This document shows positions 14,227-27,755 of a stretch of 28,565 nucleotides of DNA, one piece after another. A program made the translations under genes and the position numbers. The notes below the pieces were generated by a model. It saw only the letters and a program-made list of their open reading frames with translations. It made no database searches and was not told the DNA's origin. The stretch lies in the IMG/VR virus record IMGVR_UViG_3300025010_000198, positions 1 through 28,565 of that record. One strand, given 5' to 3'. Every line of letters starts with the position of its first letter. Within the stretch, counting starts at the first letter, position 1. Source of the stretch: a virus.

Positions 14227-14304
14227 TGGAGCTTCCACGAGGACTCGAACCTCGAACCCAGCTGATTTGTAGAACAGCTGCTCTGCCAGTTGAGCTATAG
14301 AAGC
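14227..14304 (-). tRNA. tRNA with irregular anticodon arm, isotype uncertain
   Basis: Read leftward it has a 7-bp acceptor stem (GCTTCTA with TGGAAGC, one G-U), a D-arm GCTC/GAGC with GG in the loop, a perfect T-arm (CGAGG, TTCGAGT, CCTCG), discriminator T and an encoded CCA. The anticodon region, GCTGTTCTACAAATCAGC, is one or two bases too long. With a strict U33/purine-37 rule the loop CTACAAA gives anticodon ACA. A bulged stem gives TAC (Val). Taking TT before CTA gives an amber-reading CTA. None folds cleanly. It may be a decaying gene or one with an unusual loop. Confidence 0.78.
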
Positions 14305-19403: not shown

Positions 19404-21233
19404 CTACTGCGGTAACTGCTCCTGCATCGGCTCTGGCTGTACTGGGTTGCCAAACTGGTCGATGGGCTGTTCTGCCTCACCCCCCATGCCAGGCTGAGGC
19501 TGGCTCTGTGCCAACTGCATGGATAACGCCTGCATCTGTGCCTGCATACTGAGTGCCGTCCACTGAGCAGCCGTACTCCGCAGGTCGTCTATGCTCATGG
19601 GCGCAATCATGCCCTCCACATCCTCACGCTCTATGCCCGGAGTAGTGAGCAGTGCCGATACCTTGCCCCATATCTGCGCAGGCGTGCCTTCCAGCACGAA
19701 CAAGCCCTGTGCTGATGCCTGGGCCTTCGCTTCGGCTTTCTGCGTCTCCGTGAGTATAGGAGCGGTTCTTGGCCGCACGTCTTCTGTGTTGCGTAGGTCG
19801 CTGCCAAAGAATGCCGCTGTGCGAACGTTGTTGCTCTCGCCTACTACACGGATCATTCTGGGTACGTGGTAATGGTTCTTGGCAAGGAGCAGCTTCAAGC
19901 GGCTGATCTTGCAATATGTTATGTCGAACCCCTCACGGAACATAGTCAGTCCGCTCATGTCGGACTCTTTGAGTATTGCAACCTGGGTTGCTGTCACCTT
20001 GCCCGATGCCTGCTGTCCCAACGCTGATTCATGGATGCCTGCAAGCTGCATGGACTCGTTACGCAATTGGTTCAACATGCTTTCTGCTTCTGAGGAGTTC
20101 AGGTTGTACTCCATGAACTTAAATGAACTGCCCGGCTGAACCCGAATTATCTTGCGCCCGTCCTTGCCTGTCTCCTGCGTCGGCTCGGTAACGCTGTCGG
20201 TGATAAGGTCACCGCGAAGCTGCCGGTTCTTTAGCTCAATGAGCTGTGAGAGCGTGATGTTGATCTCACGCTGTAGGTCTCTAAGCGGCGTCACAAATGG
20301 CAGGGGATAGGCTCGCCCCGGGATGGGGAACCAGTCTATCGCGCTAAACGGCATTTCGCCTTCCGGGAGCGTCTCCTCCTGGAGCAGCTTGCCATTCGCC
20401 CACACGTAGAGCTTGCCTTCTGGCTGCTTGCGGGTTGGCTTGGCATACATGCGCTTCAGGATAGCGGCCTTTTTGCGCTGGCTTGTGCTGTCGCCTGAAC
20501 CCTGCCCGACTATGTTTGTAAGCAGCCTGTCGAGGTTGCGCGTAGCATCGGAATATTCCTCAGCCTCCACGTCATGCCCCGGCCACAGGTCGTTTATCTC
20601 CTCGATATCCCGCACGTCTGACTCTATGATCCAAGGCATATCATCGCTGGACTCAGACCACGGGCAGGTGTGGAACCTGAACGGGTTCAGCGTCTTGCTT
20701 GCTATGTCGCCTAAGCCTTGCGTTTTGCCGGTCACGCCAAAGCCGTCTGCTTCGGGGTCCCAATATGTTTTGCGGAGGACTCTGCCAACGCACATGGCCC
20801 ACAGGATTTCCATGAACCGAAGCTCGTCTTCCCTGTCCTCATAGTGCCTGCTCTGAAGGAAGTCGGTCGCAAGCTCCGCCGCCTGCATGTCAGCCTCATC
20901 ACCCGTCGCGCTCGTAGCTACCTGCTGCGCTATGTGCTGCCTCAGTGAAGACGCGGCCTGTCTCGCAAGCGGAAGGATCGTATTGTCAACGATCTTGGTC
21001 TTGCCCGTCTGCGTAGAGGGTACAACAGTCCGGCCCCATCTGCGCACGTCGTCAACAGCCGCCTCCCACTGGTTGCCAGCTAGGAACAGGCAGTTGGTCA
21101 GCCAGTCAGGCTCAAACTTCCTGCGCGTGGCGTCAGCGGTCTGGTACAGCCCATCAAGCGCGATAACCTTGCTGTGGTCGGTCGTGCCCGGCTGCGACTC
21201 CGTAAATTGTGCTAGTTTGATATCCTCTGCCAT
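19404..21233 (-). CDS. Portal protein
   Basis: This is a 609-residue protein forming the dodecameric DNA gate of the capsid. The N-terminal helix region (FEPDWLTNCLFLAGNQW), the core around ILWAMCVGRVLRKTYWD and NPFRFHTCPW, and the long stem/wing helices (LRDLQREINITLSQLIELKN) fit podovirus portals of the P22/SU10 type. The C-terminal 60 residues are Gln/Met/Pro-rich (MQAQMQALSMQLAQSQPQPG), as in many portals. It comes after the large terminase and two small genes. GGGG lies six bases before the ATG, and it ends in TAG. Confidence 0.88.
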   Translation of the reverse strand: MAEDIKLAQFTESQPGTTDHSKVIALDGLYQTADATRRKFEPDWLTNCLFLAGNQWEAAVDDVRRWGRTVVPSTQTGKTKIVDNTILPLARQAASSLRQHIAQQVATSATGDEADMQAAELATDFLQSRHYEDREDELRFMEILWAMCVGRVLRKTYWDPEADGFGVTGKTQGLGDIASKTLNPFRFHTCPWSESSDDMPWIIESDVRDIEEINDLWPGHDVEAEEYSDATRNLDRLLTNIVGQGSGDSTSQRKKAAILKRMYAKPTRKQPEGKLYVWANGKLLQEETLPEGEMPFSAIDWFPIPGRAYPLPFVTPLRDLQREINITLSQLIELKNRQLRGDLITDSVTEPTQETGKDGRKIIRVQPGSSFKFMEYNLNSSEAESMLNQLRNESMQLAGIHESALGQQASGKVTATQVAILKESDMSGLTMFREGFDITYCKISRLKLLLAKNHYHVPRMIRVVGESNNVRTAAFFGSDLRNTEDVRPRTAPILTETQKAEAKAQASAQGLFVLEGTPAQIWGKVSALLTTPGIEREDVEGMIAPMSIDDLRSTAAQWTALSMQAQMQALSMQLAQSQPQPGMGGEAEQPIDQFGNPVQPEPMQEQLPQ

Positions 21234-21236
21234 GCT

Positions 21237-21503
21237 CTACCCCATCAGTCTGTTAAATGCGCTCTGTGACTCCACATAGTCGGCTACCTGCGGCTCGTGG
21301 TATGCGCTATGCGGCTCGTCGTCGTCCGGCCCTAGGTCTGCCGCTACCACGGTGTGCTTTGGCTCTTCTGCCCTCATAGCGTTGCTGGTGTAGTCGGTGA
21401 GCGTACCCGCCTGCAACCTGCTGTATAGCTCCCTGCGCTCTCGTGCAGCCAGTGCTTGCAAGATCACAATCAACATAGCGGCTATGCCTATCTCAAATGT
21501 CAT
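21237..21503 (-). CDS. Small membrane-anchored protein, 88 aa
   Basis: The ATG overlaps the preceding stop as ATGA, with GAGG seven bases upstream. An N-terminal hydrophobic helix (IGIAAMLIVILQALAA) is followed by a basic stretch (RERRELYSRLQ) and an acidic, His-containing tail. It has no known domain. It lies two codons before the portal start and is probably co-expressed. Possible roles in packaging or membrane attachment are only guesses. Confidence 0.68.
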   Translation of the reverse strand: MTFEIGIAAMLIVILQALAARERRELYSRLQAGTLTDYTSNAMRAEEPKHTVVAADLGPDDDEPHSAYHEPQVADYVESQSAFNRLMG

Positions 21504-21781
21504 TTTATTTCCTCGGGCCCGAAGCGATCTAGGAGAACGTCACACAAACGATTTAATTGAGTCTCCAAGTAGGTTATGCGGGCTTCGGCAGACTCAACGC
21601 GAGCTGTGAGTATTGGCCTATTGGATAAGCGTTCAACGCACTTCTCTAGTGCATCAACCCGTACCGTAAGCAGGTCCACTTGGGTCTGCCTGTCTGGAAG
21701 CATAACCATATCGTTACCTTCCCAGTAATATTTAGCGTTGCCCTCGCGTGGGACATAATCTATCTTTCGCGCACCTCTCAT
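21500..21781 (-). CDS. Coiled-coil protein, 93 aa
   Basis: AGGAGG precedes the ATG by eight bases. After a basic N-terminus (MRGARKIDYVPREGNAKYYW) comes a long heptad-like helix (LLTVRVDALEKCVERLS and ARVESAEARITYLETQLN), predicted as a coiled coil. It lies between the large terminase and a membrane protein. Function unknown; it may be a packaging accessory. Confidence 0.7.
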   Translation of the reverse strand: MRGARKIDYVPREGNAKYYWEGNDMVMLPDRQTQVDLLTVRVDALEKCVERLSNRPILTARVESAEARITYLETQLNRLCDVLLDRFGPEEIK

Positions 21782-21793
21782 TTGTTCACCCTC

Positions 21794-23176
21794 CTAATAG
21801 TCAGGACTCTCCTGTACCTCTGCCATAGCGTCCCGCTGCCGTATGCCGAGTGGTGAGCGCGGGTCGTATAGCTCCTCGCGTACGATAATGGTTGCCTGTG
21901 GCCTACTCATCACCCCATACCGGATAGCTTCGGGCATGTGTGTCAGCTCATGCGGCTCGTCCGACACGTCCTCAGGGTCGCGCTGATCCTTCACGACCGC
22001 CGAAATCGTGCGTATGGCAGTACGGCACGAACTGAATATCTTGAATTGAGCCGTCTTGATAGTCCCTCCGTCATCGGTGGGTATCTCGAACGGCTGTAGG
22101 TACTCTCTCAGATGCCGCCAGCCTGGTTTGCGCCTGTTGTCCGCCTTCACAATGTTTTTAAGCCCGGCTTTAGTGAGCGTCTCCATCTCAGGTACACCAG
22201 TGTCTTTATTGCGATTCCAGAGATCCGGCGCTGTGCTTGTGTATAGTATGGCCTCGTCACCGGGCGTCATGGCCTGTATGCGTTTGGCCGCCTGTCCCAG
22301 CGTCAATCCCGACTCGTACAACTCGCGATAGAGCCATAGATTAGCCTGGGGGTCGATCGCAAACCACGGAACAGCCAGCATGTCAAACCCGTAGTCCATC
22401 GCCCTAAACCGCTTCCACTCCGCTGGAATGTCGAAGGGTTCAACAACATGAATATCACGCCTGAACTCACCGTAGTACACCCCGCCGGGCAGCCCATACT
22501 CACCAAGGCCGACCACCTTGTACCGCTCAGGGTTGGTATCCTCAAGATCGGCGATCTTCTTCCGGTCTTGCTCGTCAAGCCACTCATTGCACTTGTAGGT
22601 GGTGGTCAGCGTGAACGTGTCGGGGTTTTCTCGGTCAAAATACCTGGTCTTTGTCCAATGCGAATCTATCCACGGGTTAAACGTAAGCGTGACCTGTTTC
22701 CAGAGTCCGTCCGGCATCTCGCCTCTGATGGACTCATCAAGCGTGTCAAACTCTGTTTCATCGTCTATCTCAAAGGCTTCTTCGATCCACACCCAGCACA
22801 AGACGCCAATAGGCACAGTCATAGAGGTCAGCTTCAACGGGTCGTCAAACCCTCTGAATAGAATCCTCTGACCTGTTGGCCTGTATACGCACTCCATCGG
22901 GTTGACCTTGAAATCCCACAGGTGGTATACATGCAGCCTTTGCGCCGCCCACTTGAGCTGTGCAAACGTGCTGTCTTTGTGCGTGTTGCCGGTCTTTCGC
23001 ACAACAAGCGCATTCGCCGCGGGGTGCTTCATTATGTGATAGATGTACCAAAGAGCAGCCGTGGCGCTTTTCTTCGAGCCTCGACCACCCTTTAATATTC
23101 TGTAACGGCTTTTGTTGTGCCAGAATGAGGCGTAGCCCTTGCCGATCGTCTTCGGCAGGTCGATATCAACCCTCAT
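21794..23176 (-). CDS. terL: Terminase large subunit (PBSX/Terminase_3 type)
   Basis: This is a 460-residue ATPase-nuclease that packages DNA into the procapsid. The Walker A-like LKGGRGSKKS is at residues 28-37, Walker B VLCWVWIEEA at 125-134, and the coupling motif TFNP at 165-168. The nuclease domain begins near Asp261 (AMDYGFD), and the C-terminus has the usual HMPEAIRYG. Length and motifs match the family well. The start overlaps the small subunit gene by 11 bases and depends on coupling. It ends in TAG just before the next ribosome site. Confidence 0.93.
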   Translation of the reverse strand: MRVDIDLPKTIGKGYASFWHNKSRYRILKGGRGSKKSATAALWYIYHIMKHPAANALVVRKTGNTHKDSTFAQLKWAAQRLHVYHLWDFKVNPMECVYRPTGQRILFRGFDDPLKLTSMTVPIGVLCWVWIEEAFEIDDETEFDTLDESIRGEMPDGLWKQVTLTFNPWIDSHWTKTRYFDRENPDTFTLTTTYKCNEWLDEQDRKKIADLEDTNPERYKVVGLGEYGLPGGVYYGEFRRDIHVVEPFDIPAEWKRFRAMDYGFDMLAVPWFAIDPQANLWLYRELYESGLTLGQAAKRIQAMTPGDEAILYTSTAPDLWNRNKDTGVPEMETLTKAGLKNIVKADNRRKPGWRHLREYLQPFEIPTDDGGTIKTAQFKIFSSCRTAIRTISAVVKDQRDPEDVSDEPHELTHMPEAIRYGVMSRPQATIIVREELYDPRSPLGIRQRDAMAEVQESPDY

Positions 23177-25381: not shown

Positions 25382-25390
25382 CGCAACACA

Positions 25391-25426
25391 AAGCCCCCGT
25401 GTCGATGTTATGACACGGGGGCTTTT
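25391..25426. terminator. Strong bidirectional intrinsic terminator
   Basis: AAGCCCCCGTGTC pairs with GACACGGGGGCTT (13 bp) around an eight-base loop, followed by a T-run rightward; leftward the stem ends in AA and could also work. It closes the rightward operon and insulates the attachment site. Confidence 0.92.
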
Positions 25427-25446
25427 GACATTATCCATGACATTAT
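25426..25446. repeat. attP arm-site pair, left (TGACATTAT x2)
   Basis: TGACATTAT at 25426-25434 and 25438-25446, 12 bases apart, the same motif as the pair beside the integrase gene. Likely arm-type binding sites for the N-terminal domain of the integrase. Confidence 0.75.
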
Positions 25447-25552
25447 ACCGGGGACAATGCCGAACCACTCTATGCTATTATATGCGATTGCGCGAGAGGG
25501 AGTAGGGGGCTGGAGACTATGCAAAACCACCTAAAATACCTCTTGTGGCGCA

Positions 25553-25591
25553 TTTCAAGACCGCTCCCTTAAACCACTCGGGCACCTCTCC
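25553..25591 (-). other. attP core: 5' half of a tRNA-Ser(UGA) gene
   Basis: Read leftward from 25591: GGAGAGG (acceptor 5' strand), TG, a D-arm CCC/GGG with the GAGTGGTTTAA loop typical of tRNA-Ser, A26, then GCGGT and the anticodon loop CTTGAAA (anticodon TGA). After the loop the sequence (TGCGCC) no longer pairs with the stem, and no T-arm follows. This is the pattern of an attachment site that crosses over in an anticodon loop. It lies between the two pairs of arm repeats and next to the integrase. Confidence 0.82.
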
Positions 25592-25633
25592 CACGCTCAT
25601 TTCAGGCCTGTTTCATGCTCCAACTATGCCCTT

Positions 25634-25653
25634 TGACATTATTTTGACATTAT
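25634..25653. repeat. attP arm-site pair, right (TGACATTAT x2)
   Basis: TGACATTAT at 25634-25642 and 25645-25653, 11 bases apart; the last copy covers the integrase stop codon. With the left pair it brackets the tRNA-Ser core, giving arms of about 107 and 43 bases. Confidence 0.75.
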
Positions 25654-26804
25654 AGCTCATCTAAGTACCCCGGAATCCGATCAGCCGCCGCCCGTTGAAT
25701 AGATGGAATAACATGGCTGTATCGGTTCATTGTAATGCCAATGCTGGCATGTCCCAACCGCTCCTGCACCACCTTCGGATGCACACCCTGGGTCAGCAGT
25801 TCGCTTGCATGGGTATGGCGGAATGCGTGAAACGGCACACGCTCCACCCCGGCGCGAGTGAGCAGATCCACAAACCTTGTCGAAAACCCGTCGGGAATGA
25901 TAGGGCGTCCGTCTTCGTAGCAGCATACCAGATCGCCGTTCTCTACTGTGATGACGGCTGCCGCGCCTTTGCGTTCCTCTGCCTGTGATATTCTATGTTT
26001 TTGCAACGCCTCTGTCAAATCCTGCGGTACGTCGATCTGTCTGCCGCGCCCTGATTTCGGCTGCTTGAACGCCAGCCCCTTCGCCGTCTGAGAGAGTGAG
26101 CGTCTGACGTAGACAACACCCGATTCAATATCCACATCAGTCCAACGTAGAGCCAGTATCTCCCCGCGCCTCATGCCGGTGTAGAGTGCAAGAAGGCAGG
26201 GCATATACCAGATGCTTCCGGCGGCTGCGGCAAGTATGCGGTTTATCTCGTCTCTGGTGAATATACGCATCTCAGCATCCTCCACTTTCGGCGGGTCTAC
26301 AGCATCGCATGGGTTACGGGGGACTAACTGCCAGCGGAGAGCCGTCTGCAACGCCCGGCGAAGGACTCTGTGGAGATGCAGGACAGTGCGCGGAGAGAGT
26401 CCCGGCTTGCCCTCTACGGCCTGTCTCCTGCCCGTCAGCAGGCACGCGGAATAGAACTGCTGTATGTGCCTCGGGCGCAGCCCCTTGAGCGTGTGATGGC
26501 CGAGTGCGGGGATGACGTGTAGTTTCACCAGCTCGCCGTAACGCTCATGTGTTTTGGCGGCTACAGTGGGCTCGATGGCGGCCAGCCAATCAAGGAGGAA
26601 CAAGCGCAGCGGCACAGCGGACGGGTTGACATGCTCTCCTCGCTGAATGTCCGTGATGATCTCGGATAGCCGCGTCTGGGCGTCTCGTTTGTTGCCGTGG
26701 AATGTCTCGCTGCTGTAGGCGGGCTTTCCCGTGGTGGAATCGCGGCCAGTGTACCATTGTAGCGTCCAGCTGCCCTTGGCGCGTGAGCGGAGCGTGCCTC
26801 TCAT
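25650..26804 (-). CDS. int: Tyrosine-type site-specific integrase
   Basis: This is a 384-residue recombinase that joins attP to the bacterial attB. The N-terminal arm-binding domain (about 1-60, AP2-like; SWTLQWYTGRDSTTGKPAYS) and SAM-like core-binding domain (about 65-165) precede the catalytic domain. Active-site residues are Arg212 (TGMRRGE), Lys250, H326-x-x-R329 (HAFRH), His352 (LGHAS) and the nucleophile Tyr362 (MNRYSH). The length and all residues are normal. The start overlaps the upstream gene as ATGA. The stop lies inside the right arm repeat, so arm occupancy and the gene end are linked. Confidence 0.95.
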   Translation of the reverse strand: MRGTLRSRAKGSWTLQWYTGRDSTTGKPAYSSETFHGNKRDAQTRLSEIITDIQRGEHVNPSAVPLRLFLLDWLAAIEPTVAAKTHERYGELVKLHVIPALGHHTLKGLRPRHIQQFYSACLLTGRRQAVEGKPGLSPRTVLHLHRVLRRALQTALRWQLVPRNPCDAVDPPKVEDAEMRIFTRDEINRILAAAAGSIWYMPCLLALYTGMRRGEILALRWTDVDIESGVVYVRRSLSQTAKGLAFKQPKSGRGRQIDVPQDLTEALQKHRISQAEERKGAAAVITVENGDLVCCYEDGRPIIPDGFSTRFVDLLTRAGVERVPFHAFRHTHASELLTQGVHPKVVQERLGHASIGITMNRYSHVIPSIQRAAADRIPGYLDEL

Positions 26805-27340
26805 GTGCCTACCATGCGGAGCAGGTCAGTTTCCATAGGCTGACACAGCCCCAGGTGATCGAGTTTGACGGATAGCGCACGCTGTGACACCTCGCACCGG
26901 GCCGCCAGTATCGAAACACGGCTTGGGATATGCGCCTCCAGTTCGTGCCACCAGTGCAATACCCAATCATCCGGCATGAGCAGTTCAGCCGCGCCGATGT
27001 TGCAAGCGCGTTCGATGCTGGAGACGTTTTCACTGTGGCTTGCGAGGAACAGGCTGCCCGAGGCCGCGCCGGCTTGCACTAGCCGAACGTGCATCAGCTC
27101 ATGCGCCAGGCTGTAGCGCACGCGCGGCCAAGGGATGTGGATGTTACTATTTATGTAGCAAATCCACCCTGAGCAGGTCTTATGCACGAACGCATCAGGC
27201 TCACACCGGGCGAACCTGTGCCGCCGCACCTCTACGCCAATATACTCAGCTATTCTTTCCAGCGACACAGGCGGCTCCTCGTGTAGTTCCATGAGCAGCG
27301 CGCGTGCTTGACCCATTGCCACTCTCGCGAGTCGTTCCAT
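26801..27340 (-). CDS. ImmA/IrrE-family metallopeptidase
   Basis: This is a 179-residue zinc protease with the H-E-x-x-H motif at residues 80-84 (SLAHELMH). AGGGGG lies four bases before the ATG. In mobile elements such as ICEBs1, ImmA cleaves the neighbouring XRE repressor to trigger induction. Its position between repressor and integrase fits the same role here: linking damage or other signals to prophage excision. The C-terminal part (about 125-170) contains a helix-turn-helix-like stretch (SILAARCEVSQRALSVKLDH), as often seen in this family. Confidence 0.9.
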   Translation of the reverse strand: MERLARVAMGQARALLMELHEEPPVSLERIAEYIGVEVRRHRFARCEPDAFVHKTCSGWICYINSNIHIPWPRVRYSLAHELMHVRLVQAGAASGSLFLASHSENVSSIERACNIGAAELLMPDDWVLHWWHELEAHIPSRVSILAARCEVSQRALSVKLDHLGLCQPMETDLLRMVGT

Positions 27341-27362: not shown

Positions 27363-27683
27363 CTACCGCCGCTGTTTATTCGCGGCTTCCTTGTCCCGGT
27401 TTATCAAGTCCAGGATCTCAGCTATAGTATCGTCCGACAAATCGCCCTGCGCACGCAGATATACCTCACTGCTGTATAACTGTACCCTCCGCTCCCAGGC
27501 GTCGGGGTCTTGGCCTATGGCCTCCGCGAACCTGCGTACTACCGATATATCCTCCGGTATCCGCCCGTATGCCATGTTGCTGACTGTAGGAGCGGAAACA
27601 CCTATCGCTCTAGCTACTTCCGCTTGGCTCTTGTCCTTCATCGCTGCGCGTACATCTACAGCCCATCGTTCACTGTATGGCAT
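27363..27683 (-). CDS. XRE-family phage repressor
   Basis: This is a 106-residue DNA-binding protein. The start at ATG 27683 has GGGAGGGG upstream; a longer frame to 27755 would run over the promoter and is rejected. The helix-turn-helix is at about 19-45 (SQAEVARAIGVSAPTVSNMA). A short C-terminal region (TIAEILDLINRDKEA) probably serves dimerisation and is the likely target of the adjacent ImmA-like protease. It would bind the CATTGTT sites between 27719 and 27845 to keep the early genes off. Confidence 0.9.
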   Translation of the reverse strand: MPYSERWAVDVRAAMKDKSQAEVARAIGVSAPTVSNMAYGRIPEDISVVRRFAEAIGQDPDAWERRVQLYSSEVYLRAQGDLSDDTIAEILDLINRDKEAANKQRR

Positions 27684-27718
27684 TGTCTTTGCCCCTCCCG
27701 TGATGTTCACCACCACCA

Positions 27719-27755
27719 CATTGTTGATTCTAACACCCCTGCCCATTATTGGCAA
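27719..27755 (-). promoter_or_regulatory. Leftward repressor promoter with operator half-site
   Basis: TTGCCA (27755 to 27750), a 17-base spacer and TAGAAT (27732 to 27727) point toward the repressor gene. A CATTGTT half-site (27719-27725) lies just past the -10 box, so binding there would reduce repressor synthesis. Confidence 0.75.

Follow-up and report, generated by a model that had tools for sequence, protein, structure and literature searches.

Among the 3,919 tRNA-gene islands of Islander, 159 carry a 5' fragment of the tRNA gene, and 2,083 are anticodon-centred (PMC4383910, Table 1). The attP sites of tRNA-integrating mycobacteriophages have a core of 30-45 bp and carry the 3' half of the gene, so that the host promoter goes on driving the tRNA (PMC10865867). 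tRNA-dependent lysogeny, known from phages such as Fionnbharth and Gaia, relies on a core of about 10 bp; the broken host gene is complemented by a separate tRNA of the phage, and the prophage becomes responsible for an essential tRNA (PMC10865867). A literature search returned the Islander counts and no paper on promoter replacement by an element carrying the 5' half.

The stretch of DNA analysed here (the window), 28,565 nucleotides long, is the linear record of a virus in IMG/VR, and we are highly confident that its positions 25426-25655 constitute the attP of a temperate phage, at which crossover in the anticodon loop would rebuild tRNA-Ser(UGA) from a phage 5' half and a host 3' half. Like the 5'-fragment islands of Islander, the window combines a tyrosine integrase with a carried fragment of the tRNA 5' end that stops in the anticodon loop, where crossover would take place, and a displaced 5' fragment is expected at the far end of the integrated element. 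Unlike those integrated islands, it holds a free phage attP, and the displaced fragment was seen in relatives only. Core size, arm sites and a (here predicted) anticodon-loop crossover are shared with the mycobacteriophage sites, but the half carried is the other one; with tRNA-dependent lysogeny it shares a prophage that would answer for an essential tRNA, although in this case it is the tRNA gene that would be rebuilt. Already on record for about 4% of tRNA-gene islands, the arrangement is an uncommon form of a strategy that is very common among phages. The window shows a free phage attP whose integration would replace the first part of a tRNA gene and so put a host tRNA under the control of phage DNA.

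Anatomy of the attachment site

On the minus strand, positions 25591 to 25553 read GGAGAGGTGCCCGAGTGGTTTAAGGGAGCGGTCTTGAAA, 39 nt that equal nt 1-39 of tRNA-Ser(UGA) and contain the acceptor strand, the D-arm, the 5' anticodon stem and the 7-nt anticodon loop. The loop's final base, nt 39, is also the last identical one; from there the tRNA goes on with ACCGC and the phage with TGCGC. Using the inner 34-mer common to the window and a sister phage (L002) as an exact query against a genome collection of 84,980 species, we obtained matches in three contigs, from Clostridiales (L083), Chloroflexi (L084) and Armatimonadetes (L085), all inside full tRNA-Ser(TGA) genes called by ARAGORN. The window agrees with the Clostridiales gene at 39/39 positions and with the other two at 38/39. 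The search for a bacterial tRNA-Ser(UGA) identical to 25553-25591, proposed in the first-pass annotation, therefore returned one such gene, bearing out its reading of the stretch as a 5' half that stops at the end of the loop. The half carried by L002 differs by one acceptor change, at position 5 (GGAGAGG to GGAGGGG), and equals the Chloroflexi tRNA-Ser at 39/39. Since both phage halves are identical to those of real genes, joining them in silico to the host 3' halves gives complete sequences equal to real tRNA-Ser genes.

The annotation had also held that the site names the host attachment gene. The gene stands as tRNA-Ser(UGA), but the host does not: assigning a host from the tRNA half was rejected, the half being present in three bacterial phyla, and no lysogen of the window phage or of a close relative was found in a search for related integrases covering Armatimonadota, Chloroflexota and the phylum of the Clostridiales contig, where the best genome integrases were 43-47% identical. 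Capsid protein relatives, sought in IMG/VR for host identification, were not found there. Terminase relatives at 77-79% occur only in metagenome viruses, and those in isolate-derived records reach about 60%.

The integrase gene int (25650..26804, minus strand) encodes a tyrosine recombinase of 384 aa (Pfam PF00589, E=2.6e-28; PF14659, E=2.9e-9), in whose sequence the catalytic motifs GMRRGE, HAFRHTH, LGHAS and MNRYSH can be read. Relative to the predicted crossover, the tRNA half is on the int side, and its direction is that of int. Around it, TGACATTAT occurs exactly four times in the window, with starts at 25426, 25438, 25634 and 25645, all on the plus strand, against 0.17 copies expected, and 0 of 100 shuffles reached four. 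The copies form an int-distal pair (25426..25446, plus strand, period 12), which is conserved in L002, and an int-proximal pair (25634..25653, plus strand, period 11), the inner repeats lying 106 and 42 bases from the tRNA segment. Short sites repeated on both sides of the core characterize arm-type attP, and these pairs are putative arm-type sites at which integrase binding is predicted. That paired repeats flank the tRNA half and that int ends in the last of them had been noted before; both hold, the int stop codon lying inside that repeat, with the correction that these are direct repeats having one orientation on both arms. In many relatives, the int stop codon is likewise accompanied by similar direct repeats in pairs.

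Within the core, the anticodon loop CTTGAAA (25553..25559, minus strand) is the predicted 7-bp strand-exchange (overlap) region; attB identity ends here, and fragments in an integrated relative described below (G543) also point to the anticodon loop. Beyond it, where host tRNA identity stops, the phage-specific core side TGCGCCACAAG (25542..25552, minus strand) takes the place of the host 3' anticodon stem and is presumed to be the second core-type integrase site. On the other side, phage DNA extends from the int-proximal arm to tRNA nt 1 (25592..25633, minus strand). In a lysogen this segment would lie upstream of the tRNA; it is nearly unchanged in L002, with 2 changes, at -1 and -3. A perfect 14-bp inverted repeat, AAAGCCCCCGTGTC / GACACGGGGGCTTT, at 25390..25425 is also kept in L002 and, judging from its sequence, is probably a two-way terminator closing the attP, although it was not among the predictions of the terminator scan.

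The integrase of L002 is 97% identical to that of the window, and the attP has about 97% DNA identity versus 93% across the whole aligned 2.1-kb block; positions 25427-25675 are almost unchanged, and the adjoining int 3' end is more diverged. Because phage genes continue on both sides of the site in each record, both represent the unintegrated attP form. Elsewhere (19404-23176, minus strand), the terminase large subunit and the portal are 79% and 46% identical between the two phages, as against about 97% for the integrase, the ImmA-like gene and attP; apparently, the integration module was exchanged or is changing much more slowly than the structural genes. The window also has a tRNA-like gene (14227-14304, minus strand; 47 bits with RF00005) with an abnormal anticodon stem-loop, to which ARAGORN gives no isotype; its L002 counterpart, near-identical in the outer parts, is a normal tRNA-Thr(TGT), and the anticodon arm of the window gene looks altered.

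In the proposed mechanism, the integrase would bind the TGACATTAT pairs of the arms as well as the quasi-symmetric anticodon stem, and strand exchange would span the 7 nt of the anticodon loop in the host gene for tRNA-Ser(UGA). Because tRNA identity lies on the int side and is codirectional with int, the phage would give nt 1-39 and everything upstream at the int-side junction, with the 3' half coming from the host, and the far prophage end would keep the original promoter and 5' half of the host. Both the integration of the window phage and the exact cut positions are what we infer from this layout.

The same core might be used without rebuilding the tRNA, a phage tRNA substituting for the broken host gene as in the mycobacteriophages with tRNA-dependent lysogeny (PMC10865867), and the window and L002 do carry one tRNA-like gene each. 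Yet attP and attB share only about 10 bp in those phages, as against a 39-bp match here that yields a complete tRNA in silico; a short core and an unrestored tRNA, the marks of that system, are not what this core presents. The phage tRNA there also fits the isotype of the target, whereas that of L002 is Thr(TGT) and that of the window is without an ARAGORN isotype. Neither ARAGORN nor Rfam RF00005 called a tRNA-Ser able to replace a broken host gene in the window or the L002 record, both of which may be partial. We regard such substitution as extremely improbable and retain the rebuilding of tRNA-Ser(UGA).

The 5'-half swap in integrated relatives

We examined 120 integrase relatives in whole genomes, 54 of which have a complete tRNA or tmRNA gene at most 600 bases from the int end. 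The tRNA faces int, the usual 3'-half arrangement, in 51 of these, and runs in the same direction as int in three. Two of the codirectional cases (G543 and G448) are clear 5'-half swaps, with the restored tRNA and the displaced 5' fragment at opposite ends of the element, and the proportion of confirmed 5' swaps to usual arrangements (2 : 51) is close to that of Islander (159/3,919; PMC4383910). The third (L264, genome G350) was rejected as a swap of this kind: its flank is a second, almost complete tRNA copy, and there is no 5' fragment.

At G543:C1, an intact tRNA-Arg(CCT) lies beside int and reads away from it, and an exact nt 1-39 fragment, which retains a TTCACA-18-TATAAT promoter, is found 8.9 kb off on the same strand. 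A second element, on the other side of this tRNA, left a fragment of nt 33-77, whose overlap with the first fragment is exactly the anticodon loop, 7 nt long (nt 33-39). At this locus (~1782363-1796493; L302-L303), one element replaced the 5' half of tRNA-Arg(CCT) and another its 3' half. At G448:C27, the intact gene is a tRNA-Trp, the first of a tRNA cluster, and the exact nt 1-38 fragment lies 11.2 kb away; the sequence upstream of this fragment resembles another int 3' end, suggesting a tandem insertion. Both loci resemble the window in their integrase family, in a tRNA codirectional with int and in a 5' half that comes from the element, and differ from it in an integrase only 33-35% identical, in their tRNA targets and in their separate branch of the integrase tree.

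These elements also bear on the possibility that the tRNA half is the remnant of a decayed phage-borne tRNA-Ser gene that adjoins int by chance and has no role in integration. Phages do carry tRNA-Ser genes with segments 85-90% similar, and a further tRNA-like gene is present in the window itself (14227-14304), but identity here stops exactly at the loop, beside int and between two pairs of arm repeats, the halves of both phages are exact for real host tRNAs, and G543 and G448 have the same nt 1-38/39 block at both element ends. Chance decay is hardly credible as an origin for this pattern. The sequence, the sister phage and the integrated relatives with the 5' half all give good support to the original annotation of a complete attP built on the 5' half of tRNA-Ser(UGA).

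Proposed transcription of a rebuilt tRNA

After such an integration, phage DNA would have to provide the transcription of the restored, essential tRNA, through read-through of the repressor-ImmA-int genes or a promoter near the int end. An HTH repressor-like gene (27363..27755, minus strand; PF13560, PF01381) is the first of a minus-strand group that reads towards the tRNA half, followed by a gene for an ImmA/IrrE-like protein (Peptidase_M78; 26801..27340, minus strand; PF06114, E=6.1e-9), which overlaps the start of int by 4 bases. From the int stop to the tRNA half, scans for promoters and terminators recognised neither a consensus promoter nor a terminator. A TATAAT at 25654-25649, earlier suggested as part of a promoter, does not hold up in that role: it overlaps the int stop codon and an arm repeat, and at 16-18 nt spacing the best -35 box has 2/6 matches. 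Inside int, TTGGGA-17-TACAAT (25757-25729) matches a promoter at 9/12 positions; it is lost in L002 and was not relied on.

The int 3' ends of G543 and G448 (L280 and L240) have sigma-70-like matches of 11/12 and 10/12 at the codons of the catalytic-tyrosine motif. There, the codons for FTMDVYSHII spell TTCACA-17-TATAAT in G543 and TTTACT-17-TATAAT in G448, about 110-137 nt upstream of the rebuilt tRNA. Scored in the same way, none of 50 relatives with a facing tRNA exceeds 9/12, and one relative without a nearby tRNA scores 11. Because G543 and G448 are sister sequences, the two matches count as one observation; a promoter hidden in the integrase gene is possible in these elements.

For the window, we tentatively favour read-through of the repressor-ImmA-int group. 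The earlier proposal, transcription of the tRNA from phage DNA in the lysogen, follows from the geometry of the site and agrees with the structure of the relatives; the expression part, including the source of transcription, is what we infer from these. In its specific form, with tRNA-Ser(UGA) as the last gene of a lysogeny transcript (repressor, ImmA-like protein, int, tRNA) or driven by a promoter in the int 3' end, we put it forward as a tentative and rather unlikely scenario; if true, the supply of an essential tRNA-Ser(UGA) would be tied to the lysogenic state. It is also conceivable that the attP is real and the carried half silent, a second host tRNA reading UCA so that restoration would not be required. 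The failure of the scans to recognise a promoter upstream of the half would fit such silence, but both phages keep the half exact, in contrast to the drift at other attP positions, and the single change, at position 5, remains within real tRNA variants. A silent half is accordingly improbable, and restoration of tRNA-Ser(UGA) remains the preferred reading.

Carried half and polarity in the integrase family

A tree built from 42 integrases joins the window and L002 to L095 and L097, with support of 90/87, under the strict threshold; G543 and G448 belong to a different group with good support, where they stand among relatives with a facing tRNA. As the two pairs with the 5' half belong to different groups, carrying this half arose at least twice on the tree. 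L095 and L097 have a displaced tRNA-Leu(TAA) 3' half beside int and codirectional with it, and in their genomes a complete tRNA-Leu(TAA) lies on another contig, followed by repeats resembling those at the int end. From this complete gene and its arm-like repeats, it follows that L095 and L097 carry the 3' half on the int-distal side. In the window lineage, to judge from the tree, the carried half probably changed and the polarity did not.

With 51 relatives in which the tRNA faces int, two verified 5'-half swaps and several codirectional displaced 3' halves, the window and its relatives outline changes of attP polarity and of the carried half inside one integrase family. A displaced tRNA 3' half next to int and codirectional with it is also present in two further integrase relatives, L320 and L323.
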